Virus record (IMG/VR): IMGVR_UViG_3300006033_000087
Location: 1-29,155 of that record
DNA length: 29,155 bases
Reading direction: 5' to 3' (one strand)
Source: a virus
Part shown: one piece after another, positions 6,099 to 27,012 of the stretch
Layout of the letters: every line of letters begins with the position of its first letter
How positions within the stretch are numbered: the first letter of the stretch is position 1
Program-made: the position numbers and the translations under genes
The notes under the pieces: generated by a model
Told to the model about the DNA's origin: nothing
Databases searched by the model: none
The model's input: the letters and a program-made list of their open reading frames with translations, nothing else

Positions 6099-7707
6099 GA
6101 CCAGGCCAAAACAAAAGATTTATTTAAATGATGCACAACAACGGGTTTTGGATGTTGGCGCAAAAAATACATACATTGTTGCAAGCCGTGGCTCTGGTAA
6201 GTCAGAAGGTATTGATGCTCCATACCTACTCCGGAATGTATTTGCAATGCCGAGAAGCGCAGGAGCACTTGTATCTCCTACTTATGGCAAGCTCTTAAGA
6301 AATACTTTGCCTGCAATTTTTCACGCATTCTCAAGGTGGGGATATATCCGAGGGGTGCATTATTTTGTTGGCAGGCATCCAGATAAGAACCTGAATTTTA
6401 AAAAACCATATATTGACCCGGTTGATTACAAATATGTCATCATCTGGTTTAATGGGAGTATCCAGCATCTGATATCCTTTGACATGCCAATGTCTGCAAA
6501 CTCAATGAGCTTGGACTATATTGCAGGCTTTGAAGCTAAGTTTCTTGATTTTGATAAAGTTAAAAATGAGGTCCTTCCGGCTAATCGAGGCAATACTAAT
6601 TACTTTGCCGGTTGCCCATGGCACCATGGCCAGTTGTATACAACCGACATGCCAACATCAAAGTCAGGCACCTGGATACTTGAGAAAGAAAAGGAGATGG
6701 ATCCTGATCTAATCGAGATAATTCTACAATACAAGAATGAGATTAAACATTTAAAAGCTTCAAAGAAAAACCCGGCAAAGCTTAAAAAGCTTGAGAAAGA
6801 ATTAAACCTTTTTAGAAAGCACGCCACTTATTATGCAGAGTTCAACGTTTTCGATAACATTGATGTTCTGGGCCTTGACTTTGTTAACGACATGGCCAGA
6901 GATCTTCCACCTCTAATCTTCCAGACTGCCATCCTGAATAAAAAAATGAAGAAAATAGCCAATGGCTTTTATGCTTCATTAAATGAAAAGCTCCATTATT
7001 ATACTGCCTATAACAATAGTTATTTGGAAGACCTTGATTACAATATGGATGCTGTTGGCAAAGAGACATATCTTAAGGATAGTGACGTGGATCCTGAGCT
7101 TCCACTTGAAATAGCCAATGACTACAATGCGGCAATCAATTCCCTGGTATGTGGACAGAAGGTTGATAACATTGCCAGGACATTAAAGTCCTTCTTTGTT
7201 AAGACACCTGAGAAGCTTAAGGAAGTTGTAAACAAATGGGCTGATTATTACTCACTCAGAAGTAATAGGGATGTTATCTACTATTATGATAGTACTGCGA
7301 TATTTGATACACCAACAGATTCAGAAAGCTTTGCTGATGTTGTTATCAACACACTAACATCTAGGGGCTGGTACGTTGAGCCTGTTTATATAGGCAAACC
7401 AGTTAAGCATGCATTGAAGCATCAGTGGTTTGATAATGCTTTCAAGGGAAACCCTGAGTTCCTTTATCCTTTATTTAATGCCGATAACAATGAGTATCTT
7501 TTACTAGCCATGGATCAGACTGGCATCAAGCAAGGCCGTAACGGATTCGAGAAGGATAAGGATCCTGAGAAGAAACAAGACACTGTTGAGAATCCTGATG
7601 AGTTGAAGACTCACATAACTGATGCATGGGATACACTGTATATTGGCATGCAATATTATCATCCTGGTGTAGCTGCAGGTATAGGATCAACACACTTTTC
7701 TAATTAA
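6091..7707 (+). CDS. Terminase large subunit (ATPase/nuclease)
   Basis: A 538-residue DNA-packaging motor. The N-terminal ATPase has a Walker A motif ASRGSGKS (residues 31-38). The Walker B position falls in SLDYIAGFEAKFLD, where Glu148 could be the catalytic carboxylate, but the usual preceding Asp is replaced by Phe. The C-terminal RNase H-like nuclease shows a first metal-binding Asp in VIYYYDSTA (Asp400) and a final acidic pair in ITDAWDTLY (Asp511, Asp514). The start at ATG 6091 overlaps the small subunit stop by the usual few bases; an upstream Met at 6076 would overlap more and adds five unlikely residues. Length and motif order are normal for the family. Confidence 0.93.
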   Translation: MNETRPKQKIYLNDAQQRVLDVGAKNTYIVASRGSGKSEGIDAPYLLRNVFAMPRSAGALVSPTYGKLLRNTLPAIFHAFSRWGYIRGVHYFVGRHPDKNLNFKKPYIDPVDYKYVIIWFNGSIQHLISFDMPMSANSMSLDYIAGFEAKFLDFDKVKNEVLPANRGNTNYFAGCPWHHGQLYTTDMPTSKSGTWILEKEKEMDPDLIEIILQYKNEIKHLKASKKNPAKLKKLEKELNLFRKHATYYAEFNVFDNIDVLGLDFVNDMARDLPPLIFQTAILNKKMKKIANGFYASLNEKLHYYTAYNNSYLEDLDYNMDAVGKETYLKDSDVDPELPLEIANDYNAAINSLVCGQKVDNIARTLKSFFVKTPEKLKEVVNKWADYYSLRSNRDVIYYYDSTAIFDTPTDSESFADVVINTLTSRGWYVEPVYIGKPVKHALKHQWFDNAFKGNPEFLYPLFNADNNEYLLLAMDQTGIKQGRNGFEKDKDPEKKQDTVENPDELKTHITDAWDTLYIGMQYYHPGVAAGIGSTHFSN

Positions 7708-15303: not shown

Positions 15304-15333
15304 AAGCCCCTGCTTCGTCAGGGGCTTTTTTTT
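15304..15333 (+). terminator. Intrinsic terminator (first of a near-identical pair)
   Basis: AAGCCCCTG (15304-15312) pairs with CAGGGGCTT (15319-15327) over CTTCGT, followed by an unbroken run of T (15326-15333). Almost the same hairpin recurs at 15849-15878. Confidence 0.93.
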
Positions 15334-15344
15334 GTGAAAATAAA

Positions 15345-15375
15345 TTTGACTTTCGTGTATTAGTGTGTATATTTG
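15345..15375 (+). promoter_or_regulatory. Bacteroidetes-type promoter (TTTG / TAnnTTTG)
   Basis: TTTG (15345-15348) is followed after 19 nt by TATATTTG (15368-15375), an exact fit to the Bacteroidetes -33/-7 consensus and its usual 19-21 nt spacing. It lies just behind a terminator, so it should start a new transcript near 15382 that carries RNA element A as its leader. Confidence 0.75.
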
Positions 15376-15397
15376 TAGTGTAAAAAATCATCAATCA

Positions 15398-15520
15398 ATG
15401 AATTTCCTAAGAACTTATATAGGGCGAAGCCCTGAGTGTCCAGATTCCGTGAGGTTTCTGGCGGTATTGATGATACCGTTACAACACTCAGGGCTTCGCT
15501 TTTTAGGAGATCTTTTATGA
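15398..15520 (+). CDS. Possible leader peptide crossing RNA element A
   Basis: A 40-residue frame (MNFLRTYIGRSPECPDSV...) whose TGA stop overlaps the ATG of the next gene as ATGA. It runs through the whole structured element, so its translation would unfold the RNA and could couple to the gene behind. Its frame is not conserved through the second copy of the element (one base difference between 15442 and 15450 shifts the frame), so the RNA, not the peptide, appears to be what is conserved. Confidence 0.3.
   Translation: MNFLRTYIGRSPECPDSVRFLAVLMIPLQHSGLRFLGDLL
15424..15499 (+). ncRNA. Structured leader RNA, element A (three-way junction)
   Basis: P1: GCGAAGCCCTGAGTGT (15424-15439) pairs over all 16 positions with 15484-15499. 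P2: CCAGA (15440-15444) pairs with TCTGG (15457-15461), and an inner CC/GG closes a GTGA tetraloop (15449-15452) across a UU/UU internal loop. P3: CGGTAT (15462-15467) pairs with ATACCG (15473-15478). The linker from P3 to P1 is TTACA. A homologous copy at 22332-22407 keeps every helix with compensatory changes. It begins about 40 nt after the predicted transcription start and ends 17 nt before the start codon at 15517. A TTTTT run follows P1, so attenuation is also possible. No named RNA family is recognised. Confidence 0.82.
15505..15509 (+). promoter_or_regulatory. Shine-Dalgarno AGGAG deciding the start at 15517
   Basis: AGGAG with 7 nt to ATG 15517, between the 3' strand of the RNA element and the gene. 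It supports this start over an in-frame ATG at 15436 that lies inside the RNA structure. Such strong sites are uncommon in this window. Confidence 0.7.
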
Positions 15521-15828
15521 AGAAAAGTGAAATGATTGACAAGGTTATTCTTGTTGATTTTGAGAATGGGCAGGCGTGGGACTTAACCCAGTTTGCAAAT
15601 GAAATGAAGGATTTGTCGGAAGACCCCTCGACGGATCTTATCAGCCTTATTAAAAACAACATTCATGAGGTTGGCTTTAACCTGTTCAGGATAATGAACG
15701 GAACGACAGCCGGCTACCTGAGTGAAGTTTTTGATGATATTGATTATAACCTGAGTTTACTGGCCGGCATTGCCGAGGCAGAAAAGAGTGAAAGTATTTA
15801 CGAAAAAGCGAAGGAGGGACTTATGTAA
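15517..15828 (+). CDS. 103-residue protein controlled by RNA element A, unknown function
   Basis: A small acidic protein beginning MKKSEMIDKVILVDFENGQ. An N-terminal beta hairpin (VILVDFENGQAWDL) is followed by helices, including LISLIKNNIHEVGFNLFRIM and a C-terminal AEAEKSESIYEKAKEGLM. No motif is recognised. It lies alone between two near-identical terminators with its own promoter and a structured leader, directly before the tape measure gene. Tail-assembly chaperones occupy that place in many siphoviruses, so this is one option, but its separate transcription and the terminator behind it fit an independent moron better. No frameshift product into a second frame is supported, because a terminator intervenes. 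Confidence 0.6.
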   Translation: MKKSEMIDKVILVDFENGQAWDLTQFANEMKDLSEDPSTDLISLIKNNIHEVGFNLFRIMNGTTAGYLSEVFDDIDYNLSLLAGIAEAEKSESIYEKAKEGLM

Positions 15829-15848
15829 TTTAAGACTGCTTCACCTTC

Positions 15849-15878
15849 AAAGCCCCTGCTTCGGTAGGGGCTTTTTTT
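15849..15878 (+). terminator. Intrinsic terminator (second of a near-identical pair)
   Basis: AAAGCCCCT (15849-15857) pairs with AGGGGCTTT (15866-15874) over GCTTCGGT, followed by seven T. It shares stem and most of the loop with the hairpin at 15304-15333, so the two bracket the 15345-15828 cassette. Confidence 0.93.
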
Positions 15879-15882
15879 GTCC

Positions 15883-15914
15883 TTTGGTGCCGGGTGGTGG
15901 TGGATGTTTCTTTG
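15883..15914 (+). promoter_or_regulatory. Probable promoter for the tape measure and tail genes
   Basis: TTTG (15883-15886), then 20 nt, then TTTCTTTG (15907-15914), one mismatch from TAnnTTTG. It is placed right behind a terminator and 16 nt before the tape measure start, where a new promoter would be needed. Confidence 0.45.
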
Positions 15915-15930
15915 TGGAAAAACATTCAAA

Positions 15931-18900
15931 ATGGCATCAAATACAGAAGTTGCAAAAGCGGTTATTGATATTGATGGTAAAGTTGCCGGCCAAAAGCTTA
16001 GGGAGTTGGCTAAGGAAGCCAGAAAGCTAAAGCAGGAAATGGAATCGGCAAAGATTAAGGGCGATAAGGCTTCGTATGATAAACTGAAGGAGCAACTGGC
16101 GGGAGTTACCAAAGAAACGGATAAACTGAAACGGTCAACCTTTGATTTGAATAAGGTTTTAGCGGATCTGTCGAGAAAGGAAATGAACCTAAGCAAGACT
16201 GCAAGTCAAAGCTTTGGAAGCCAGATGACGGGCGCTTTGAATAAGTTATTTTTAGCTGCTACAGCAACTATAGCCAGTTTTACAGGCCTCATCATGGGTG
16301 CCAGGAAAGCAATCACAACGTTTGCAGAATGGGATGACAAATTAGCTGACGTAATGAAAACTACGCAGCTTACAAGAAATGAAGTTCTCTGGTTAAATGA
16401 AGGCTTGAAAAAAATCGATACAAGATCTTCGCAACTGGAGCTTCTGGACCTTGCCAGGGTTGCCGGTAAATTAGGTATTGAAGGCAAAGAGAATGTTTTA
16501 GGATTTGTTAAAGCAGCTGACCAGATAAAGGTTGCCCTGAGTGAAGATCTTGGTGGGGATGTTGAGGAAAGTATCAACCAGATTGGTAAACTGACTGACA
16601 TTTTTAAGCTTCAGCAGGAAATGGGGTATGAAGAAGCCATGATCAAAACAGGTTCAGCTATTAATGCACTTGGTGCTGCTTCAACAGCCAATGAAGCTTA
16701 CTTGGTTGAATTTTCTAAGAGGGTGGCCGGTGTGGCTCCTTCTGCAAAAATGACAATTGCACAAATACTTGGTTTAGGTGCTACCCTTGATCAATTAGGA
16801 CAGGCCTCAGAAGTTTCATCAACTGTATTTGCACAGGTTATTCCTGACATGTTTTCAAATACTGCCGAATATGCAAAAGTGGCCGGGATGAGTGTTAAGG
16901 ACTTTAGTAAATTACTTAATGAAGATGCCAATGAGGCATTTATAAGAATGCTTCAGGGCCTTAACGGTAATAATGCCGGAATGGAGCATCTGGTTAAGAT
17001 GCTTGATGCTTTGGGTGTTGATGGCAAAAGGTCAATTTCAGTACTGGGAGTGTTATCATCAAACGTTGAAACGCTAAGGAACCAGCAAGCTTTGGCAAAT
17101 ATTGAGTTTGAGCGGGGAACTTCATTGACCAATGAGTTCAATACTAAGAATGAGACCATGCAAGCCAAACTTGACAAGGCTCAAAAGAAGCTTTATAACT
17201 ACACAGTGGAATTAGGCCAGCGGCTTGCTCCTGCCTTAATTTTCTCAAATAATTCAATGAGCTTTCTTGTAAAGGGAATGAGTGGTGCCATTGAAACTAT
17301 AAGAATTCTCACCTTCCAAACCGGATCGGCCACAGAAGCATTCAGTAAACAGGTTGACAAGGTTTACGAATTAAAAACCGAGATAGAGCCATTATTAAGC
17401 CGATATGATGATTTGGCAACCAAGGCAAACAGATCAAAAGAAGAGAATGATGAGCTTAATACGATTATTAAAAATGTAGCTGAAAGTATTCCAAGTGCAG
17501 TTACCCAGTTTAATGAATACGGTGAAGCTGTTTCTATTTCAACCACCAGGGTAAGGGAATTTATTAATACTGAGATGGACCGGTTAAAGGTTGTAAATGC
17601 CGAGGCAATTAAGGAAAATGAAAAGTATTTGCGCCTGACTGAGCAACAGCTGAGGGGCAGCCAAAGCAGAATTGATGAAATTACATCGAAAGGATTTTTT
17701 ACAGTAACCGAAACTCAGACTACAGGAACTTCAGGATTTACTACTACCCGCAAAGCTACTGCTGATGAAATAAGACTTGAAACAGAAAAGTACCAAACCT
17801 TATTGAGTAAGAGAAGAGGCTATGAGGCTGAGATAAAGCGGTTAAATGGTGATGCCCTTAAGGATGAATTGAAGAAACGAGAAGATGAAAGAAAGCTGGC
17901 AGAGCAGAAAGAGAAAGAGCTTGCAGATCTCAAAAAGAAAGAAGAAGAAGCTGCCAAGGCTGCTGCTGCTATGGCTGCTGCTGCCTTAGAAGCGGCCAAA
18001 ACCCAGTACGAAAAGTTAACTGAGAATATTGATAAAATAAAGGCTAAAATTCAGGAACTCACCTTAAGCGGGAATTTATCTGAAGCAATGAAGCTTGCTG
18101 AGTCATTGAAGCAGATGGAGGATCTGAAGCGGGCTGTTGATTATTTTGTGCAATCAGGTGGTAATGTTGAGGCTGTTGTAGATAAAATAAGGATTGAACA
18201 GAGTGATAAGGGTATTGATAGTATAAAAGACGGAGAGCCTCTTGATAATGAATTTGCTCCAAATCCTCAATATATTCCCATCAATAAAAAGCCGATAAAG
18301 CAGAGTGGCTTTGCCGGGATGAGCAAGGATGAAAAGGGAGATTATGCGATTGAGCAAGCTGAGACTGTTGCCAATGCTACATTGGATATTTGGATGTCCA
18401 GGGCAGATGCAAGATTTGATCATGAGATGAGTTTACTGGATGCCCAGATGAATAAGGAGCTATCAAACAGTAAGCTTACTGAAGAGCAGAAAGATAAAAT
18501 CAGGGCAAAGTATGCTGCCAAGGAAAGGAAGCTGAAGCAGGAGCAATTTAAAAAGCAGAAAGGTGCTGATATTATTCAATCATTGATTAACACCTCCCTG
18601 GCTGTAGTTAAAGCTTTGCCCAATATTCCGCTTGCGATTGCTGCGGGGATTGCCGGAGCAGCACAGACCGCAGTTATAGCAGCACAACCGGTTCCTCAGT
18701 TTTATACAGGTGGTCCCACCGGAGCAGGATTAGGTTTTAGTGATGATAAGGCGCCAGTGGCAGGGGTTGTTCATGCCAATGAGTATGTGATACCTGAGTG
18801 GATGAGAAGGATTCCACAGGTTATTGGATTTGAGCGTGTGATGGAAGGTATAAGGACAGGGAGAGGTTATGCAGACGGTGGGGTTGCTTCTCCTGTATCT

Positions 18901-19071
18901 CAAGGCTCAAACACCAGTATTCAACGGGCTGCTTCAGATGAGCTTTTAACCAGGGTATTGATGAGACTTGAAAACAGGTTAAACAAAGGTGTTTATGCCA
19001 AAATGGTTTACCAGGATTTTGAGAGGTTTGAAGAGAAGAATCAGAATATTGAGAGGTTATCAGGTTTCTAA
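15931..19071 (+). CDS. Tail tape measure protein
   Basis: The largest complete gene but one-directional in style: 1046 residues, a Lys/Glu-rich helical N-terminus, then a TP901-like domain (about residues 105-300) beginning with the hydrophobic segment LFLAATATIASFTGLIMGA and containing FAEWDDKLADVMKTT and LARVAGKLGIEG. Long coiled coils follow, including an Ala/Glu/Lys run at about 640-710. A second hydrophobic segment (LAIAAGIAGAAQTAVIAA, about 890-915) precedes a Gly-rich tail ending YADGGV and a short helix. It sets tail length and may help DNA cross the inner membrane. ATG 15931 is preferred over an upstream in-frame start at 15877, which lies in the terminator. A size near 1050 residues implies a tail of roughly 150 nm by the usual rule. 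Confidence 0.92.
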   Translation: MASNTEVAKAVIDIDGKVAGQKLRELAKEARKLKQEMESAKIKGDKASYDKLKEQLAGVTKETDKLKRSTFDLNKVLADLSRKEMNLSKTASQSFGSQMTGALNKLFLAATATIASFTGLIMGARKAITTFAEWDDKLADVMKTTQLTRNEVLWLNEGLKKIDTRSSQLELLDLARVAGKLGIEGKENVLGFVKAADQIKVALSEDLGGDVEESINQIGKLTDIFKLQQEMGYEEAMIKTGSAINALGAASTANEAYLVEFSKRVAGVAPSAKMTIAQILGLGATLDQLGQASEVSSTVFAQVIPDMFSNTAEYAKVAGMSVKDFSKLLNEDANEAFIRMLQGLNGNNAGMEHLVKMLDALGVDGKRSISVLGVLSSNVETLRNQQALANIEFERGTSLTNEFNTKNETMQAKLDKAQKKLYNYTVELGQRLAPALIFSNNSMSFLVKGMSGAIETIRILTFQTGSATEAFSKQVDKVYELKTEIEPLLSRYDDLATKANRSKEENDELNTIIKNVAESIPSAVTQFNEYGEAVSISTTRVREFINTEMDRLKVVNAEAIKENEKYLRLTEQQLRGSQSRIDEITSKGFFTVTETQTTGTSGFTTTRKATADEIRLETEKYQTLLSKRRGYEAEIKRLNGDALKDELKKREDERKLAEQKEKELADLKKKEEEAAKAAAAMAAAALEAAKTQYEKLTENIDKIKAKIQELTLSGNLSEAMKLAESLKQMEDLKRAVDYFVQSGGNVEAVVDKIRIEQSDKGIDSIKDGEPLDNEFAPNPQYIPINKKPIKQSGFAGMSKDEKGDYAIEQAETVANATLDIWMSRADARFDHEMSLLDAQMNKELSNSKLTEEQKDKIRAKYAAKERKLKQEQFKKQKGADIIQSLINTSLAVVKALPNIPLAIAAGIAGAAQTAVIAAQPVPQFYTGGPTGAGLGFSDDKAPVAGVVHANEYVIPEWMRRIPQVIGFERVMEGIRTGRGYADGGVASPVSQGSNTSIQRAASDELLTRVLMRLENRLNKGVYAKMVYQDFERFEEKNQNIERLSGF

Positions 19072-19136
19072 GTTTTTGTCCTTTCAATTTGGGGGATAGA
19101 TAGGATAATTTCGAATTATAATTAAAAACACAAGAG

Positions 19137-19373
19137 ATGGATTTTGTAGCAAAAGTTTCCCATGGTGAAGAACCACAGAAAATTGACAGTTCAGCAGAAA
19201 ATACAACCTATGTTGGTTATCCTCAGTCAGGGGCTGCAGATGCAGATGCAAAATGGGCTATCAAGAAGATTGCAGTCGCTGCCGGTGTAACCAGTGTGAC
19301 CTGGGCAGGTGGTTCAATTGAAAAGAAACATAAATGGACTGAGAGAGCAGCTCTACAGTATTCACACATTTAA
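19137..19373 (+). CDS. Small tail-associated protein
   Basis: A 78-residue protein between tape measure and receptor-binding candidate. The pattern TTYVGYPQSG...AKWAIKKIAV...SVTWAGGS...HKWTERAALQYS resembles a small beta-sheet protein found in phage tail modules, where WxIKRI and TWADG-type strands end with W..RA.L.YS. I know it only as an uncharacterised tail or fibre-attachment component. It has no signal peptide or membrane span. Only 9 nt separate it from the next gene, so it is likely part of the tail-tip operon. Confidence 0.62.
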   Translation: MDFVAKVSHGEEPQKIDSSAENTTYVGYPQSGAADADAKWAIKKIAVAAGVTSVTWAGGSIEKKHKWTERAALQYSHI

Positions 19374-19382
19374 TTCCAGAAT

Positions 19383-21644
19383 ATGGGAAAGATAGTGCCT
19401 ATTTATGATCCATTACTGGATAAGCTGAGGCTTGAGGACTCAGGGAGTGATCCACTATTAAAGTATGACCCATTTATTGGAGAGTTCAGAATAAAGGATG
19501 ATAGCTCTGAGGTGAGTTATGATGCGTTTTCAGGAAAGCTTCGTCAGGGGAAAATAAAGGATCCTGTTATCTCTGGTGCCACTGCTGTGGCAGAAGATGA
19601 TTCAGTTGTTTTCAGTGGTGCTGTAAATCCGAATTTATATTCAACAGTTGTAACCCTTCTGTGGGGTACGACTGAGAATGATCTTAACCATACTATTGCC
19701 GCAGGTACATTTACTGCTTCAGGTAATATTAACCTGACTGTTTTGAATGAAGTATTTGGTGATAGTGAGAATATATACTGGAGATTTAAGGCAGTTAATG
19801 CCTCAGGGAAGGAAGTATTTTCCTCCGTTCTAGGCACAGAGGTGAACGTTTTGTTCACCCAATATAAGACAAGGGTTTTAGCTGATTCAGGTGCATTAAG
19901 ATCTGAAACATTTACTAAAGACTATATTAATTTCCTACGTTCACAGGGTAGAATTAATAATGTTAAGCTACTTGTTACTCCTGAAATGGGTATTAAGACA
20001 AGGACTGTTGGGATTAATAAATATGTTAGTAAGGCATATAGCCCTCAACTACCTACTAATGATGCGGTACAAGCCACAGAACTTAGTCAACCATTCTTAG
20101 CAGGTAATATAGCGCCAAATAGTAAGTATGCATTACAAAACCCTAATGGCGGTACTAGGCTTCTAACACATCCTAATATATCATTTGCGGCTAATGAGGC
20201 ATGGAGTATTACATCTCTAGTTAATGACAATTGGGGTCCTGAAGTATTTGCTGGCTGTATTTTTTCGGAGGGAAGCTCAAATGCTAAAACAAACTTTTAC
20301 ACTAAGCCAAACAATACCACTTATGGGTTTAATAATGAATCAGGCGCCTCACAACAATTTGGCTGCTCATCCTTACCTAATATTGGTAAAAACACAATAA
20401 TCACCCTCGTCGCTAATGGAGGTGGAACACTAAAGCTATATACAAACGGTACTTTAAAAAGCACAATAAATATAGCAACTAATGTTTCTATAAATAGATA
20501 TATGCAGGGTATTGGCCGGTACTTTAACGGTAGGCTTCAATCACATCTTATTCAATCAGGTGCATTAACAGATGCACAAGTTCTTGCTGAATATAATCTA
20601 TTACGTTCATGGATTCCTGAAATTGAGAATGTTACTATTGGCGCTCAACAATGGGCTACAAGTAATCTTGACGTAGTTTGTACACCACAAGGTAATGTTA
20701 TTAATGAAGTACAGATCAATAGTAACACTGAACGTGTAGTTAATGGGGGATTTACTACTAACTTATCAGGTTGGAATTTAGTTCAATCTGCTCCAAATGC
20801 AACTATAACACAAGCGGGTGGACAATGTATAATACATTCTGATGGTACAGGTGTAAATCTTAATCAAGCGTGTTTAACTATAGGTAAATGGTATAAACTT
20901 AGTCTTAATGTAGTGTCTATTTCAGGCACATTAAAAGTGGGAGATAACGGAACTACTCTAGATAATTTAATACCGGCTATCTCAAGTACTGGCATAAAAA
21001 CTGTTTATTTTAAAGCTAGTACTACTACTATTTACATCGTCAGAGTTACTGCCGTAGATGCGGTCATAGATGATGTTTCTTGTTTAGAAGTTGGTTGGGC
21101 TAACTCACAGGAATTATACGATGCCATTTATGCCGCAACCGCTGGAACCGCTGAGCAGAAAACATATGCTGCGCTGAAGGCCGCCGCCATGTGGAGCTAT
21201 TATAATAATGACCCTGTAGCGGGAAGTGTTTATGGTAAACTATATAATTGGTTTGCCGCTAAGCTACTTCAAATCGATATTGACGCTTATAATACGGCTA
21301 ATCCTACTAGTGTTTGGGGATGGAAAGTACCATTAGTTGCACACTTTAATACTCTTATTTCTTACCTTACCCCTTCTGGTAGTAAGTTACGTGAATCAAG
21401 TAATTTGTATTGGTTTGGAGCGCCTGTTGGAACTAATAGTAGTGGTTTTACAGCAATACCTGGCGGTAGAAGAAACGCAGATGGTACATTTTCGCAATTA
21501 ACAGCTATATGTAGATTTGCAATTAGTGAAGAGCACTCTGCAACATTTCAAAAATATGCGGCATTAGGCTATAATGATGCGGAGCTTAGTATAAATACTG
21601 TTGAAAAAACATTAGGTGTGTCTATTAGACTTATAAAATCATAA
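19383..21644 (+). CDS. Receptor-binding/tail fibre candidate: repeats, Fn3-like, LamG-like, split FISUMP domain
   Basis: A 753-residue mosaic protein. Residues 8-56 hold three repeats of the form YDPxxxKLRLxD (IYDPLLDKLRLED, KYDPFIGEFRIKD, SYDAFSGKLRQG). Residues about 60-157 look like a Bacteroidetes Fn3-type domain (GAVNPNLYSTVVTLLWGTT, FKAVNASGKEV). Residues about 200-415 look like a LamG/concanavalin-type lectin (FNGRLQSHLIQSGALTDAQ). From 417 a FISUMP (Fib_succ_major) domain starts with VTIGAQQWATSNLD, is interrupted at about 450-570 by a jelly-roll-like carbohydrate-binding module (VVNGGFTTNLSGWNLV...DDVSCLEV), and resumes with WSYYNNDP, YGKLYNWFAA, WKVPLVAHF, SGFTAIPGGRRNADG and a final VSIRLIKS. 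Such domain sets bind carbohydrate receptors. Codons after residue 157 look more AT-rich than before it. Confidence 0.75.
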   Translation: MGKIVPIYDPLLDKLRLEDSGSDPLLKYDPFIGEFRIKDDSSEVSYDAFSGKLRQGKIKDPVISGATAVAEDDSVVFSGAVNPNLYSTVVTLLWGTTENDLNHTIAAGTFTASGNINLTVLNEVFGDSENIYWRFKAVNASGKEVFSSVLGTEVNVLFTQYKTRVLADSGALRSETFTKDYINFLRSQGRINNVKLLVTPEMGIKTRTVGINKYVSKAYSPQLPTNDAVQATELSQPFLAGNIAPNSKYALQNPNGGTRLLTHPNISFAANEAWSITSLVNDNWGPEVFAGCIFSEGSSNAKTNFYTKPNNTTYGFNNESGASQQFGCSSLPNIGKNTIITLVANGGGTLKLYTNGTLKSTINIATNVSINRYMQGIGRYFNGRLQSHLIQSGALTDAQVLAEYNLLRSWIPEIENVTIGAQQWATSNLDVVCTPQGNVINEVQINSNTERVVNGGFTTNLSGWNLVQSAPNATITQAGGQCIIHSDGTGVNLNQACLTIGKWYKLSLNVVSISGTLKVGDNGTTLDNLIPAISSTGIKTVYFKASTTTIYIVRVTAVDAVIDDVSCLEVGWANSQELYDAIYAATAGTAEQKTYAALKAAAMWSYYNNDPVAGSVYGKLYNWFAAKLLQIDIDAYNTANPTSVWGWKVPLVAHFNTLISYLTPSGSKLRESSNLYWFGAPVGTNSSGFTAIPGGRRNADGTFSQLTAICRFAISEEHSATFQKYAALGYNDAELSINTVEKTLGVSIRLIKS
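19841..19859. repeat. Short palindrome at the Fn3/lectin domain border
   Basis: GGTGAAC (19841-19847) and GTTCACC (19853-19859) form a perfect 7-bp inverted repeat around GTTTT, inside the receptor-binding gene at the end of the Fn3-like domain. GTTCACC recurs at 22194-22200, just after the AT-rich segment ends. Chance occurrence of a 7-mer is easy; only the placement is suggestive. Confidence 0.5.
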
Positions 21645-21646
21645 CT

Positions 21647-21883
21647 ATGAACTATATAAAACTTACAACAATTGAGGAATATAACCAGTTGAATGATGCC
21701 ATAAGCCTGTCTCGCGGCTACCCTGACACTTTAACTGGCACTGCCCGCTATGCCCCAGAGGACCCCGAGCCAGTTGAGGTAAAGGATGAAAACGATGTTG
21801 TTATTGAGAGTTATTACGAGTTTCCATTAACGGAAGATATAATGACAATAGTACAACTCATGTCAAATAAGGAGATTATTTAA
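21647..21883 (+). CDS. Small protein downstream of receptor-binding gene
   Basis: A 78-residue acidic protein starting 2 nt after the fibre gene. It has an N-terminal helical ITIEEY-type stretch, then LSRGYPDTLTGTARYAPEDPEPVE, then a beta-like YEFPLTEDI and a helical end. The RGYPDxxTGTxRYAPExP motif is one I associate with small proteins following fibre genes in Bacteroidetes prophages. A fibre chaperone or fibre-tip role is plausible by position, but unproven. Its TAATG end overlaps the next start by one base, indicating coupling. Confidence 0.58.
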   Translation: MNYIKLTTIEEYNQLNDAISLSRGYPDTLTGTARYAPEDPEPVEVKDENDVVIESYYEFPLTEDIMTIVQLMSNKEII

Positions 21884-22194
21884 TGATAACGGCAATAATC
21901 ATATCCTTAATCCTATTAACAGCCCTATGGAATGGCTTAGTTATTCAATGGTATTTAACTAAAGATCAACGCTATTCTAAATATTGGCACGCTGTAGGAT
22001 TTATCATAAGGGGTTTATTAGTGTTGCTGATTTACTTACATACAAAGGATCATTTATTGACAGGAATAACAGCCTTTATCAGTTGGATTCCCTATAATAT
22101 GATTATTAATATTTGCATGAAACAACCTATATTTTATATTGGTCGGACTTCAACTATTGATAAGTTTATCAGAAAAATATTAGGATTAATTTAG
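21883..22194 (+). CDS. Three-span membrane protein, paralog 1
   Basis: A 103-residue protein with three hydrophobic helices: about residues 2-24 (AIIISLILLTALWNGLVIQW), 36-54 (AVGFIIRGLLVLLIYLH) and 58-79 (LLTGITAFISWIPYNMIINI). It shares WHAVGFIIR-GLLV, WIPYNMIIN, FYIGRT and an IDK near the C-terminus with the gene at 23410, so the two are paralogs at clearly diverged levels. The coding sequence is AT-richer than its paralog. It is translationally coupled to the preceding gene. Function is unknown; an envelope-interacting or holin-like role cannot be distinguished. Confidence 0.62.
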   Translation: MITAIIISLILLTALWNGLVIQWYLTKDQRYSKYWHAVGFIIRGLLVLLIYLHTKDHLLTGITAFISWIPYNMIINICMKQPIFYIGRTSTIDKFIRKILGLI

Positions 22195-22331
22195 TTCACC
22201 TCAGATACAATTTCAATGAAAAGAACGATGCAAATAAATAAGTGTATATACCTATTGATCTCGATGGGCTTTATGCTTATTTTTACATCGTTCAAATTCT
22301 ATAGTGAAAATATTTCTTCCGATAAATCAAG

Positions 22332-22407
22332 GTATGGCCTTGAGTGTCCAACTGTCCGTGAGGCTTTTGGCGGTTCTATAGAGCCGGAACAACACTCAGG
22401 GCCATGC
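22332..22407 (+). ncRNA. Structured leader RNA, element B (three-way junction)
   Basis: Homolog of element A. P1: GTATGGCCTTGAGTGT (22332-22347) pairs with 22392-22407 at all 16 positions, with two G-U pairs. P2: CCAA (22348-22351) pairs with TTGG (22367-22370), with inner CC/GG around GTGA (22358-22361). P3: CGGTTC (22371-22376) pairs with GAGCCG (22381-22386), one G-U. The linker is GAACA. Helix lengths, junction spacing (0, 0, 5 nt) and the GTGA loop equal those of A, while six base pairs differ by double compensatory changes. It ends 18 nt before the recombinase start codon. Confidence 0.82.
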
Positions 22408-22415
22408 TTTTCCAC

Positions 22416-22421
22416 AGGAGG
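22416..22421 (+). promoter_or_regulatory. Shine-Dalgarno AGGAGG deciding the recombinase start
   Basis: AGGAGG followed by AAAA and ATG 22426. It supports a start at 22426 and not at the in-frame ATG 22216, and lies between the RNA element and the gene in the same way as at 15505. Confidence 0.75.
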
Positions 22422-22425
22422 AAAA

Positions 22426-23403
22426 ATGAATGCAGCTTTAAAATTGGTTGATCAACCAAAGAAAGATTACATCAACCGCTACTTATCTTCACAACCAAAG
22501 GAAGGTGTCCTATTTAGTGATTTCATAAGGACCACTGCGACAAGGAAAGCAAAGAGAATGAGTGCTACTTACTTAAACACTTATACTACTTTGATATCGC
22601 ACCTTGAAAAGTTCTCTAAACAAAATGATGTATCACTCTACACCAACTCAATTAACGAGGAATTCCTTGAGGACTTTATTACTTACCTGAATGATCTTGA
22701 CCTGAAGCAGTCTTATGTCAAAAGTGTGGTTGAGCATACTAAGGCAATGGTACGCAAGGCCGGTACTTACGGTTATGCAGTTGATCCTTCTTATGATGAT
22801 GTGGTAATAGAGGAAGATGATCCATTTGCCATTTACCTTTCAATGAATGACATTTCCCGGATATACTTTTATGATGATTTAAGCAAAATACAGAAACAGC
22901 AAAAAGACCTGTTTGTAGTTGGATGTTTAACGGCTTTAAGGTATTCTGACTATTCCACATTATCACCCAGGGACTTTCAAGGCAACTTCATTATAAAGAC
23001 TACCAAGAAAACAGGTAAGAGAGTTGTCATACCGGTTCATGATTTTATTAAGCAGATTTATGACCGGTATAATGGCGAAATATCAAGAGGTACAACAGTT
23101 CAGCAATTTGACCGGATACTGAAGGTGATAATGCAGAAGATCGGGTTTAACGATCAGGTAACATACACCTACACCAGGGGAGGTAAACTTATTACTGAAA
23201 CAAAACAGAAATGGGAATTGATATCGAGTCACACAGCCAGGCGATCAGCTGCCACTAACATGTATTTGACAGGAAGGATGAAAACTTTTGAGATTATGGC
23301 AATAACCGGCCATACAACGGAAAAGTCCTTCTTCAGATATATCAGGATTACGAATGATGATATAAGTAAGCAACTGGCGGGTGATATTTATTTTAAAGCA
23401 TAA
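22426..23403 (+). CDS. Tyrosine recombinase/integrase
   Basis: A 325-residue site-specific recombinase with a SAM-like core-binding domain (about residues 25-115, MSATYLNTYTTLISHLEKF) and a catalytic domain carrying all expected residues: Arg172 (TALRYSD), a Lys in the KTTKKTGKR beta hairpin (190-199), His269-x-x-Arg272 (HTARR), His296 (ITGHT) and nucleophile Tyr305 (FFRYIR). It should cut and rejoin DNA through a 3'-phosphotyrosine. It resembles Bacteroidetes mobile-element and phage integrases. It is unusual in lying inside the late tail operon, between two paralogous membrane-protein genes, with no excisionase or repressor nearby. It may integrate the phage, be an inserted mobile cassette, or rearrange neighbouring fibre genes; the window does not decide. 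Confidence 0.93.
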   Translation: MNAALKLVDQPKKDYINRYLSSQPKEGVLFSDFIRTTATRKAKRMSATYLNTYTTLISHLEKFSKQNDVSLYTNSINEEFLEDFITYLNDLDLKQSYVKSVVEHTKAMVRKAGTYGYAVDPSYDDVVIEEDDPFAIYLSMNDISRIYFYDDLSKIQKQQKDLFVVGCLTALRYSDYSTLSPRDFQGNFIIKTTKKTGKRVVIPVHDFIKQIYDRYNGEISRGTTVQQFDRILKVIMQKIGFNDQVTYTYTRGGKLITETKQKWELISSHTARRSAATNMYLTGRMKTFEIMAITGHTTEKSFFRYIRITNDDISKQLAGDIYFKA

Positions 23404-23409
23404 AGAGTC

Positions 23410-23727
23410 ATGGTAACAACAATGCTTATAGCTGTAATATTAATTCTAACCGCCATCAGGGAGGGATTAATAAACAGGTGGGGATTAGAGCCTAACAAAG
23501 CCAGGGTGCGGAAGATAAGCCGGGTATGGCATGCATTAGGCTTCCTTATCCGGGCATTGCTTGTTGTTATCATTTTCCTGATATCAGGAAATTGGTATAT
23601 CACAGGTGCTGCAGCTTTCTTTTGTTGGTTGCCATACAATATGATTATTAACTGGTGCAATGGCTGGCCTACATTCTATTTTGGAAAGACAAGCTGGATT
23701 GATAAGCTGATAAATAAACTGCTATAA
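23410..23727 (+). CDS. Three-span membrane protein, paralog 2
   Basis: A 105-residue protein with three hydrophobic helices (about residues 3-22, 40-60 and 62-82). It shares WHALGFLIRALLV, WLPYNMIIN, FYFGKT and WIDK-LINK with the gene at 21883, and a 14-nt identical stretch inside the IPYNMIIN region. It starts 6 nt after the recombinase stop codon. The two copies flank the recombinase, which points either to insertion of the recombinase cassette between duplicated genes or to two recombined tail-tip segments. Function is unknown. Confidence 0.62.
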   Translation: MVTTMLIAVILILTAIREGLINRWGLEPNKARVRKISRVWHALGFLIRALLVVIIFLISGNWYITGAAAFFCWLPYNMIINWCNGWPTFYFGKTSWIDKLINKLL

Positions 23728-25636: not shown

Positions 25637-26320
25637 ATGGGGTTCTGGAAGTACATATTAAGTAAGGTTTCGGGAAGAGTTCCTTCAGTTAATTCTATGG
25701 ATCCGCAAACACTGGCATGGAATGTACGTGATGGCAAGCTATATGGGTGCAAAGAGGATGCTAACGGGGTGCGATCAGTGGTGGAGATCACAGGTGATGG
25801 AGGAAGCCAGCCTCCTGTGGATTTGACCCATTATTGTTACATAGCATGGAGGGATGCGCCAGGAGATGGGTTTACATTGGATCCGGATAACATCCTTAAT
25901 TATGAAGCTATTTTATTTACACATACTGAAATACCCGAACCAAGGGAAGAAGACTTTGACGGACTTTGGAGGTTCAGGGTTACTGAGAATGCTCTTATTG
26001 ATGATATAAGTTTTGAGTACAGAGATCTTGCTGATGGTAATTTGACTTACATACTTGATGTTAAGGCCAGTTTTCAGTATGTAATTCAGGCAGGTGTTTT
26101 TGTGGTAGATACAGGGACTCTTGCCGGTATTATCGTAAAGATAAACGGGACTGCTGTAACCGGCTTAAACGGTGTTGATGCTGATAATACAATTCAAGAA
26201 TTTACTGCTACTGCAGCAAATGCTGTTGCTGTTGGTAATATAGTGACATTACATATTACAGGAGCAAAGTCATCAGGAACTACAACATTGGTAGGAAAGA
26301 TTAAAATACTTAGGAACTGA
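25637..26320 (+). CDS. Tail-tip/fibre-associated protein
   Basis: A 227-residue protein. A short amphipathic start (MGFWKYILSKVSGRVPSVN) leads to a small structural part (DPQTLAWNVRDGKLYGCKED). The remainder is beta-rich with Thr/Val/Gly repeats (TATAANAVAVGNIVTLHITG), typical of tail fibre or baseplate wing proteins. It starts 3 nt after the upstream gene and its TGA overlaps the ATG of the FISUMP gene by one base, so it is translationally coupled to that gene and may attach it. No known domain was recognised. Confidence 0.55.
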   Translation: MGFWKYILSKVSGRVPSVNSMDPQTLAWNVRDGKLYGCKEDANGVRSVVEITGDGGSQPPVDLTHYCYIAWRDAPGDGFTLDPDNILNYEAILFTHTEIPEPREEDFDGLWRFRVTENALIDDISFEYRDLADGNLTYILDVKASFQYVIQAGVFVVDTGTLAGIIVKINGTAVTGLNGVDADNTIQEFTATAANAVAVGNIVTLHITGAKSSGTTTLVGKIKILRN

Positions 26321-27012
26321 TGGGAAAGATATTGTTTATTCCTAGACAAAGAATTGTTGAACCACCACTTACAGTAATCAACTACGGATTATTATACAAT
26401 TGGTATGTTGTTGGTGATGTAAGAAATATTGCTAATTCAGGCTGGCATGTTCCTACACGTACGGAGGCTCAAACCCTTGGAGCATATTTAGGAGGATTGG
26501 CAGTAGCTGGTGGAGCTATGAAGGAAGAAGGATTTACTTACTGGAATTCTCCAAATACAGGTGCAACGAATTCATCAAAATTTAATGGAAGGGGTAATGG
26601 TGATAGGTCAAGCTCGGGAGGATTTGTAGGATTTAAAAGTGCATATTGGTCATGGACAACAACACCTTTATCAACAACATATTATAGTATCAATTTAGTT
26701 GTTGGGGGAGCTAACCTTCAAATCTTAGGCCATGCACTTAAAACTGGTGATGGAATAAGGCTTATTAAAGATTCTACTACCTTAAGTCATGGAGAAGAAG
26801 GTAGATACACCGGTAATGATGGTAAAGTATATAGAACAATATGCATAGGTACTCAGGAATGGCTGGCTGATAACTTAGCGGAGACAAAATTTAGAAACGG
26901 TGATACTATTCCTTTTGCCGGATCAAATGGAATTAATTATACAAATGCTGAATGGGCTGCTTTAACAACACCAGCCTTATGCCCTCATAATAATGACTGG
27001 ACCAATGTTTAA
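26320..27012 (+). CDS. FISUMP-domain tail protein with swapped half-domains
   Basis: A 230-residue protein. After a short N-terminus (MGKILFIPRQRIVEPP) it enters a FISUMP (Fib_succ_major) domain in the middle: YGLLYNWYVV, GWHVPTRTEA, YWNSPNTGATN and finally DGIRLIKD (about residues 22-149). It then begins a second domain with the usual first half (GNDGKVYRTICIGTQEWLADNLAE, WAALTTPALCPHNND) and stops where YNWY should follow. The half-domains are thus in the order C-half, N-half. The first 12 bases, ATGGGAAAGATA, equal those of the fibre gene at 19383. Likely a receptor-binding or fibre-tip protein; the permuted order may be natural or a recombination product. Confidence 0.7.
   Translation: MGKILFIPRQRIVEPPLTVINYGLLYNWYVVGDVRNIANSGWHVPTRTEAQTLGAYLGGLAVAGGAMKEEGFTYWNSPNTGATNSSKFNGRGNGDRSSSGGFVGFKSAYWSWTTTPLSTTYYSINLVVGGANLQILGHALKTGDGIRLIKDSTTLSHGEEGRYTGNDGKVYRTICIGTQEWLADNLAETKFRNGDTIPFAGSNGINYTNAEWAALTTPALCPHNNDWTNV

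Follow-up and report, generated by a model that had tools for sequence, protein, structure and literature searches.

Three-way-junction RNAs in phage gene leaders: a family with a two-part antisense code and probable C4-type function

The locus analyzed here raises the question of why a virus should carry two homologous structured RNAs in front of unrelated genes, and of what such RNAs might control. Our analysis was based on a window of 29,155 nucleotides (the whole stretch of DNA considered), which is a 29-kb IMG/VR virus record. A first-pass annotation had described two 76-nt elements, referred to here as copy 1 and copy 2, and both are present on the + strand (Table 1). The three-way junction that it claimed is the minimum free energy (MFE) fold computed for each element (copy 1, -47.2 kcal/mol, z -8.3; copy 2, -39.5 kcal/mol, z -5.8), and in neither case did any of 200 shuffles do as well. 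The anatomy that it gave, namely a P1 of 16 bp, a P2 with a GUGA tetraloop, a P3 of 6 bp and junction spacers of 0, 0 and 5 nt (TTACA in copy 1, GAACA in copy 2), agrees with our fold in every part, and the six base pairs changed on both strands and the three single changes to G-U are all found in the sequence. In P2, a stem of 4-5 bp leads through an internal loop to a CC-GUGA-GG cap. The genes that follow are indeed unrelated, one being an ORF of 103 aa without a known family and the other a tyrosine integrase. It is also true that no named family applies, as the elements have no Rfam match at the gathering threshold and Rfam 15 holds no matching family.

For copy 1, nothing credible was found in Rfam at E<=10, and BLAST of the element against annotated phages returned no homolog. 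Rfam searches at gathering and E-value thresholds gave only chance matches to miRNA-, sar- or RybB-like stems, which were rejected. The idea of a DNA repeat was rejected as well, as the copies diverge with compensatory changes and each tracks its own target, so that there is no identical repeat.

The virus host is probably a member of Bacteroidota. This assignment, made by sequence comparison, is based on the relatives of the integrase (22426), which belong to phages of Porphyromonas, Cellulophaga and Bacteroides, on those of the tape-measure protein, which include Flavobacterium phages, and on the copy 1 promoter, whose form (TTTG-19-TATATTTG) is that of Bacteroidota. Two paralogous small membrane proteins (21883-22194 and 23410-23727, 48% identical) flank the copy 2 cassette and the integrase, an arrangement that looks as if a tandem duplication in the tail module enclosed the cassette. 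Fib_succ_major domains (PF09603) are found in two window proteins (19383-21644 and 26320-27012), which are likely tail or adhesion proteins.

The search for further copies started from degenerate patterns derived from the two window copies. These revealed homologs in IMG/VR (L005, L012, L017 and L019), in one Desulfobulbaceae genome and in two Nitrospirae genomes (L027, L028 and L031). A covariance model built from nine sequences and a second built from 34 each gave further copies. Model matches were found in 25 of 395 genomes from the phylum of the Desulfobulbaceae genome and in 9 of 198 from that of the Nitrospirae genome, while none of the 296 Actinomycetota genomes had a match. The family now counts 61 copies, distributed over the window, 15 other viral records and genomes of Desulfobacterota and Nitrospirota. 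Pattern matches that fold differently were dropped (the 158-kb phages L011, L013 and others, as well as L001-L004, L015, L020, L026, L029 and L030). As to surroundings, the L012 copy (7284-7350) sits between two convergent DNA methyltransferase genes, and in L031 a group II intron (150-381) begins about 80 nt beyond the copy (13-68).

Computed covariation was already clear with nine sequences. In the alignment of 34 copies, 92.8% of the cells are paired and 186 cells present changes on both sides. Shuffled controls gave 52 such cells, and sliding the register never gave more than 56. The covariance model fitted this alignment to the structure, so that these figures lean upward, and some of the copies are related. 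The P2 tetraloop is GUGA or GCGA in all 34 copies, its closing pair also switches (C-G to G-C), and the junction-proximal part of P1 is mostly GAGUGU/ACACUC. The elements are a real RNA family, and the earlier claim of conserved RNA structure is much strengthened by the 61 copies and by the strong covariation.

The first-pass interpretation of a structured, conserved RNA thus stands; it proposed no function, as only the fold was seen and the unpaired antisense parts were missed. The P3 loops vary among copies, yet each fits sequence flanking its own element. When P3 loops (a') were compared with the 130 nt upstream, the match to the copy's own flank was 19.0 as opposed to an expected 13.7 (z=11.8), and for the 55 nt downstream z was 7.4. 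The 27 later-found copies gave z=9.5 upstream and 6.2 downstream, with 0 of 20000 permutations as good in each case. The junction strand J3/1 (b') is, in turn, complementary to a site b of 4-6 nt that lies mostly 3 nt (usually AAA) 5' of site a. This holds for the bases 5' of the upstream site (site A; z=15.7, n=49, 0/20000) and for the downstream site (site B; z=9.6, n=30, 0/20000). Together, the matches of J3/1 and of the P3 loop therefore describe a bipartite target, b-AAA-a, to which the P3 loop and then J3/1 match in antiparallel order. The copy was the unit of permutation, and as related copies make the shuffled controls more alike, the test is conservative.

The positions computed for these sites fall at promoters and at Shine-Dalgarno (SD) sequences. 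In most non-Bacteroidota copies, site B overlaps the SD of the next gene. Among the P3 loops that fit their own flanks, the L079 loop CUCAAAG pairs with ACUUUGAGGAGG at the SD, the L083 loop CUUCCGUAAG with CUUACGGAGG and the L088 loop CUACAGAG with CUCUGUAG. The sites and the antisense parts share one transcript, 20-110 nt apart. The two window copies make 9 and 7 contiguous Watson-Crick pairs with their own site and only 4 and 2 with that of the other, and no cross-talk is therefore expected between the two circuits. The copy 1 target a is the sole exact match to its loop within the window, and no further exact target of either copy was found elsewhere in the window. A site B at the SD was searched for in both window copies and not found, and is likewise absent from the other Bacteroidota-type copies, L017, L113 and L114. 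As the sites for the P3 loop and J3/1 lie beyond the originally quoted element, the feature has to be taken as reaching from the promoter, about 80 bases upstream, as far as the start codon on the other side (Table 1).

Table 1. Positions in the window of the two cassettes and their parts.
Feature	Position	Strand	Details
Intrinsic terminator of preceding unit	15305..15333	+	AAGCCCCTG-CTTCGT-CAGGGGCTT, then T-run; cassette 1 begins after it
Cassette 1 promoter	15345..15375	+	TTTG (15345-15348), 19 nt, TATATTTG (15368-15375); Bacteroidota type
Copy 1 target b, TGTAA	15379..15383	+	complementary to J3/1 (TTACA)
Copy 1 AAA spacer between b and a	15384-15386		
Copy 1 target a, ATCATCAAT	15387..15395	+	9-nt complementarity to P3 loop (ATTGATGAT)
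Possible leader ORF, 40 codons	15398..15520	+	reading frame; runs through the three-way junction
Copy 1 anti-SD, ATTTCCTAA	15402..15410	+	pairs TTAGGAGAT (15503-15511), encloses the three-way junction; predicted leader MFE fold
Copy 1 three-way-junction RNA	15424..15499	+	fold, covariation
Copy 1 P1	15424-15439/15484-15499		
Copy 1 P2	15440-15461		GUGA loop
Copy 1 P3	15462-15478		antisense loop a'
Copy 1 J3/1	15479-15483		b'
Copy 1 T5 tract after P1, then SD AGGAG	15500..15511	+	sequence; tract terminator-like
Regulated gene 1 (proposed)	15517..15828	+	103-aa protein without known family; just before tape-measure gene
Cassette 2 promoter (probable, degenerate)	22255..22285	+	TTG (22255-22257), 20 nt, TATTTTTA (22278-22285)
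Copy 2 target, GTTC-AAA-TTCTATAG	22290..22304	+	complementary to J3/1 (GAACA) and P3 loop
Copy 2 anti-SD, TTTCTTCC	22313..22320	+	pairs GGAGGAAA (22417-22424), encloses the three-way junction; predicted leader MFE fold
Copy 2 three-way-junction RNA	22332..22407	+	fold, covariation
Copy 2 P1	22332-22347/22392-22407		
Copy 2 P2	22348-22370		
Copy 2 P3	22371-22386		a'
Copy 2 J3/1	22387-22391		b'
Integrase SD, AGGAGG	22416..22421	+	sequestered in predicted leader fold
Regulated gene 2 (proposed)	22426..23403	+	tyrosine integrase, 325 aa, Phage_int_SAM_5 / Phage_integrase

The leaders show a recurrent arrangement. The cassette 1 promoter can alternatively be read as TTGACT-16-TATATT, and the distance from the -7 box to site a is 11 nt in copy 1, copy 2 and L017. 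Within 70 nt upstream of site a, a TTGAC (-35 box) is found in 40 of 49 copies (background 9%), mostly at 40-48 nt, and the transcript start is therefore expected at about site b. Between site A and the three-way junction, 34 of the 40 copies with room contain a T-tract (background 12%), often after a hairpin. When site A was forced unpaired in silico, this upstream hairpin became likelier in 11 of 34 copies and less likely in 4, which suggests a modest effect as an attenuator switch in this model. A U-tract follows P1 in 47 of 61 copies (background 5.5%), the tracts being weak in copy 2 and L017. The possible leader ORF of copy 1 starts 2 nt past site a and terminates in a TGA that lies within the ATGA at which the 103-aa gene begins; a comparable leader frame, ending at the SD, is seen in L113 and L114, and in copy 2 such an ORF has only a GTG start and a stop inside P3. 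The computed anti-SD:SD helix around the three-way junction is also predicted in L113 and L114 and, more weakly, in L017.

The genes that follow the elements are diverse. Among 50 next genes, eight are of antirepressor type (AntA 3, Bro-N 3, Rha 1 and ORF6N 1), four are tyrosine integrases, one is a resolvase and one encodes an HNH protein, in agreement with PHROGs, while most of the remainder are small proteins without a known family. Many of the next-gene proteins, of 65-110 aa (L064, L111, L027, L082, L116 and others), have no credible Pfam match and are alike in length and pattern by eye; they are perhaps one unnamed family. A scan of IMG/VR with the 103-aa protein as query revealed no relatives. 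The notion that the element is tied to the integrase gene was ruled out by its absence from the loci of two 50%-identical integrases (MT840060 and MT835681). As related integrases thus occur without it, the element behaves like a module found in front of various genes and not like a part of any one of them.

We consider it likely that the elements are antisense RNAs of the C4 type known from phages, each carried in the 5' leader of the gene that it controls. The RNA started at the promoter would have the bipartite site b-AAA-a as its first ~20 nt. The long P1 and the U-tract would then terminate part of the transcripts and release a small RNA, the P3 loop and J3/1 of which could bind sites a and b of further transcript molecules. 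From the terminators, together with the C4 and CI precedent, we infer such a free RNA, its action in trans and the direction of that action, repression. In most phages of the family, we likewise infer attenuation, with pairing favouring the hairpin between site A and the three-way junction, while pairing at the second b-a site would cover the SD of the next gene, so that the antirepressor, integrase or small phage protein would be kept off. The window copies would have to work somewhat differently, since site A immediately precedes the start of the possible leader ORF and the anti-SD 5' of the three-way junction is predicted to pair with the SD of the gene. Most likely, the antisense RNA would block translation of the leader, the anti-SD:SD helix would not open and the gene behind it, for the 103-aa protein in copy 1 and for the integrase in copy 2, would be silent. 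This leader-coupled translation is a hypothesis resting on few sequences.

Several points weigh against the proposed mechanism: the Bacteroidota-type copies have no site B at the SD, the computed effect on the attenuator hairpin is modest, leader ORFs occur in few sequences, the U-tracts of copy 2 and L017 are weak, and all of the pairings could also form in cis. A purely cis-acting riboregulator would pair its P3 loop and J3/1 with site A or B of the same molecule, as a pseudoknot, and would switch SD access or termination without any free small RNA. The short distances between sites and antisense parts on one transcript would suit such a device, as would the window leaders, which fold with the SD locked in cis. 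We nonetheless consider it improbable. In most non-Bacteroidota copies two sites compete for one loop, which better fits an RNA acting on several molecules, the U-tract after P1 predicts a terminated RNA, and P1 C4 and P4 CI, which have the same layout, act as separate RNAs (PMC5320573, PMC4825925). Since most copies have a U-tract behind a GC-rich P1, the element could also be read as nothing more than an intrinsic terminator with added structure, located between transcription units of the phage. This is very improbable, as the element comes after a promoter and before its own gene, as the GYGA loop, the three-way junction and the two-part complementarity at promoter and SD would be left unexplained, and as the complementarity of J3/1 to sites A and B already contradicts it. 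It is scarcely credible that the elements are metabolite riboswitches or protein-binding leaders: a conserved junction and tetraloop and a sequestered SD would be in keeping with this, but, in contrast to a ligand pocket, J3/1 and the P3 loop differ among copies and change together with the target, and one phage carries two copies with different loops.

A different matter is whether the elements are ordinary, divergent members of the Rfam C4 family (RF01695), homologous by descent. This would affect classification only and is compatible with the antisense mechanism that we propose. The three-way junction is indeed the same, with 0-nt P1-P2 and P2-P3 spacers and an unpaired J3/1, a' is in the P3 loop and b' in J3/1, b precedes a, and there are sites upstream and, in most non-Bacteroidota copies, downstream. 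Yet the C4 model, with a curated threshold of 45 bits and positive controls of 68.8 bits for P1 c4 and 74.9 bits for P4 CI, had no match in the window, in L079 at E<=10 or in L039-L053 at E<=0.1, and gave none in three genomes that carry the family; the family models, in turn, had no match on P1 or P4 C4. The P2 tetraloop is GYGA in the new family and UUCG in C4, J3/1 is 4-6 nt as opposed to 7 nt, the b-a spacing is usually 3 nt as opposed to at least 6 nt in P1 and P4, and the inner part of P1 is GAGUGU/ACACUC in the new family. As neither model finds the RNAs of the other and as tetraloop, spacing and J3/1 differ, the elements are not C4 members by the Rfam criterion, and we consider membership by descent rather unlikely. 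The broader opposite proposal can be made only tentatively, namely a separate, widespread class of antisense RNAs independent of C4, formed by movable promoter-target-junction-gene cassettes, with several per phage and orthogonal codes, and with a Bacteroidota branch in which leader-ORF coupling and the anti-SD lock replaced the downstream target.

In the open-access literature, to which our search was confined (subscription journals being outside its scope), we found no prior description of this family, and current RNA databases draw no connection between it and the P1 and P4 immunity RNAs. C4/CI antisense immunity is a classic yet narrow story from P1, P7 and P4, and the proposed function would extend it to Desulfobacterota, Nitrospirota and, probably, Bacteroidota, in whose phages and prophages the same logic would apply. 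The code by which the P3 loop and J3/1 read b-AAA-a names a target from sequence alone, and here one phage carries two copies with non-matching specificities. RNA-based control of lysogeny genes thus becomes testable in phages without a known repressor circuit, and the family could be a source of short, orthogonal antisense/target pairs.

Of the known systems, the C4 RNA of P1 and P7, with its targets in c4-a1b1 (RF03163), is close in design. C4 is processed by RNase P to an active RNA of ~77 nt and represses its target in trans. C4 and the new elements share a size of ~76-87 nt, a long P1, a tetraloop on P2, an antisense P3 loop a', a junction b' and a target in which b precedes a; the Rfam consensus for C4 likewise presents the same junction, with a J3/1 and a P3 that has a pyrimidine-rich loop. 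In P1, a' and b' loops are described, with b' at the RBS (PMC5320573), and it should be noted that this lettering may differ from ours. Its sites lie upstream and at the RBS of the antirepressor operon, while the window copies have the upstream site only, and the U-tract of the new family suggests an intrinsic 3' end, unlike C4. The ranges differ too, as C4 is on record from Proteobacteria and their phages (PMC2864571) and the new family is found in Desulfobacterota, Nitrospirota and Bacteroidota-type phages.

The CI RNA of the satellite phage P4 pairs with seqA, which lies upstream and is followed by a terminator hairpin, and with seqC, at the downstream SD, thereby providing antisense-controlled termination (PMC4825925). 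The new family resembles it in this, except that neither an attenuator nor a downstream site is present in the Bacteroidota copies, and CI also differs from the family in the ways that C4 does. When applied to C4 (P1) and CI (P4), our site search recovered a and b sites upstream and downstream of each. IsrK of Gifsy-1 (RF01394) is a phage small RNA that arises by termination in a leader, the read-through transcript being its target (PMC4825925), and is alike in this respect, while its fold differs; the isrK model had no match in the window. The same model matches the leader upstream of C4 in P4 (L092, 1696-1773), where it spans seqA and the terminator, and in genome G124 (L094, 1606-1691), and the two kinds of leader, isrK and C4, may belong to a single system. 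G124, from the phylum of the Desulfobulbaceae genome, contains a genuine C4 by the Rfam model, preceded by an isrK-like leader (L094, contig 54), as well as two copies of the new family. As the junction and the layout of the a and b sites are the same as those found for P1 and P4, the elements would, by analogy, work like C4, and our best reading is that the family represents a new variant within the C4 type of phage antisense RNAs.
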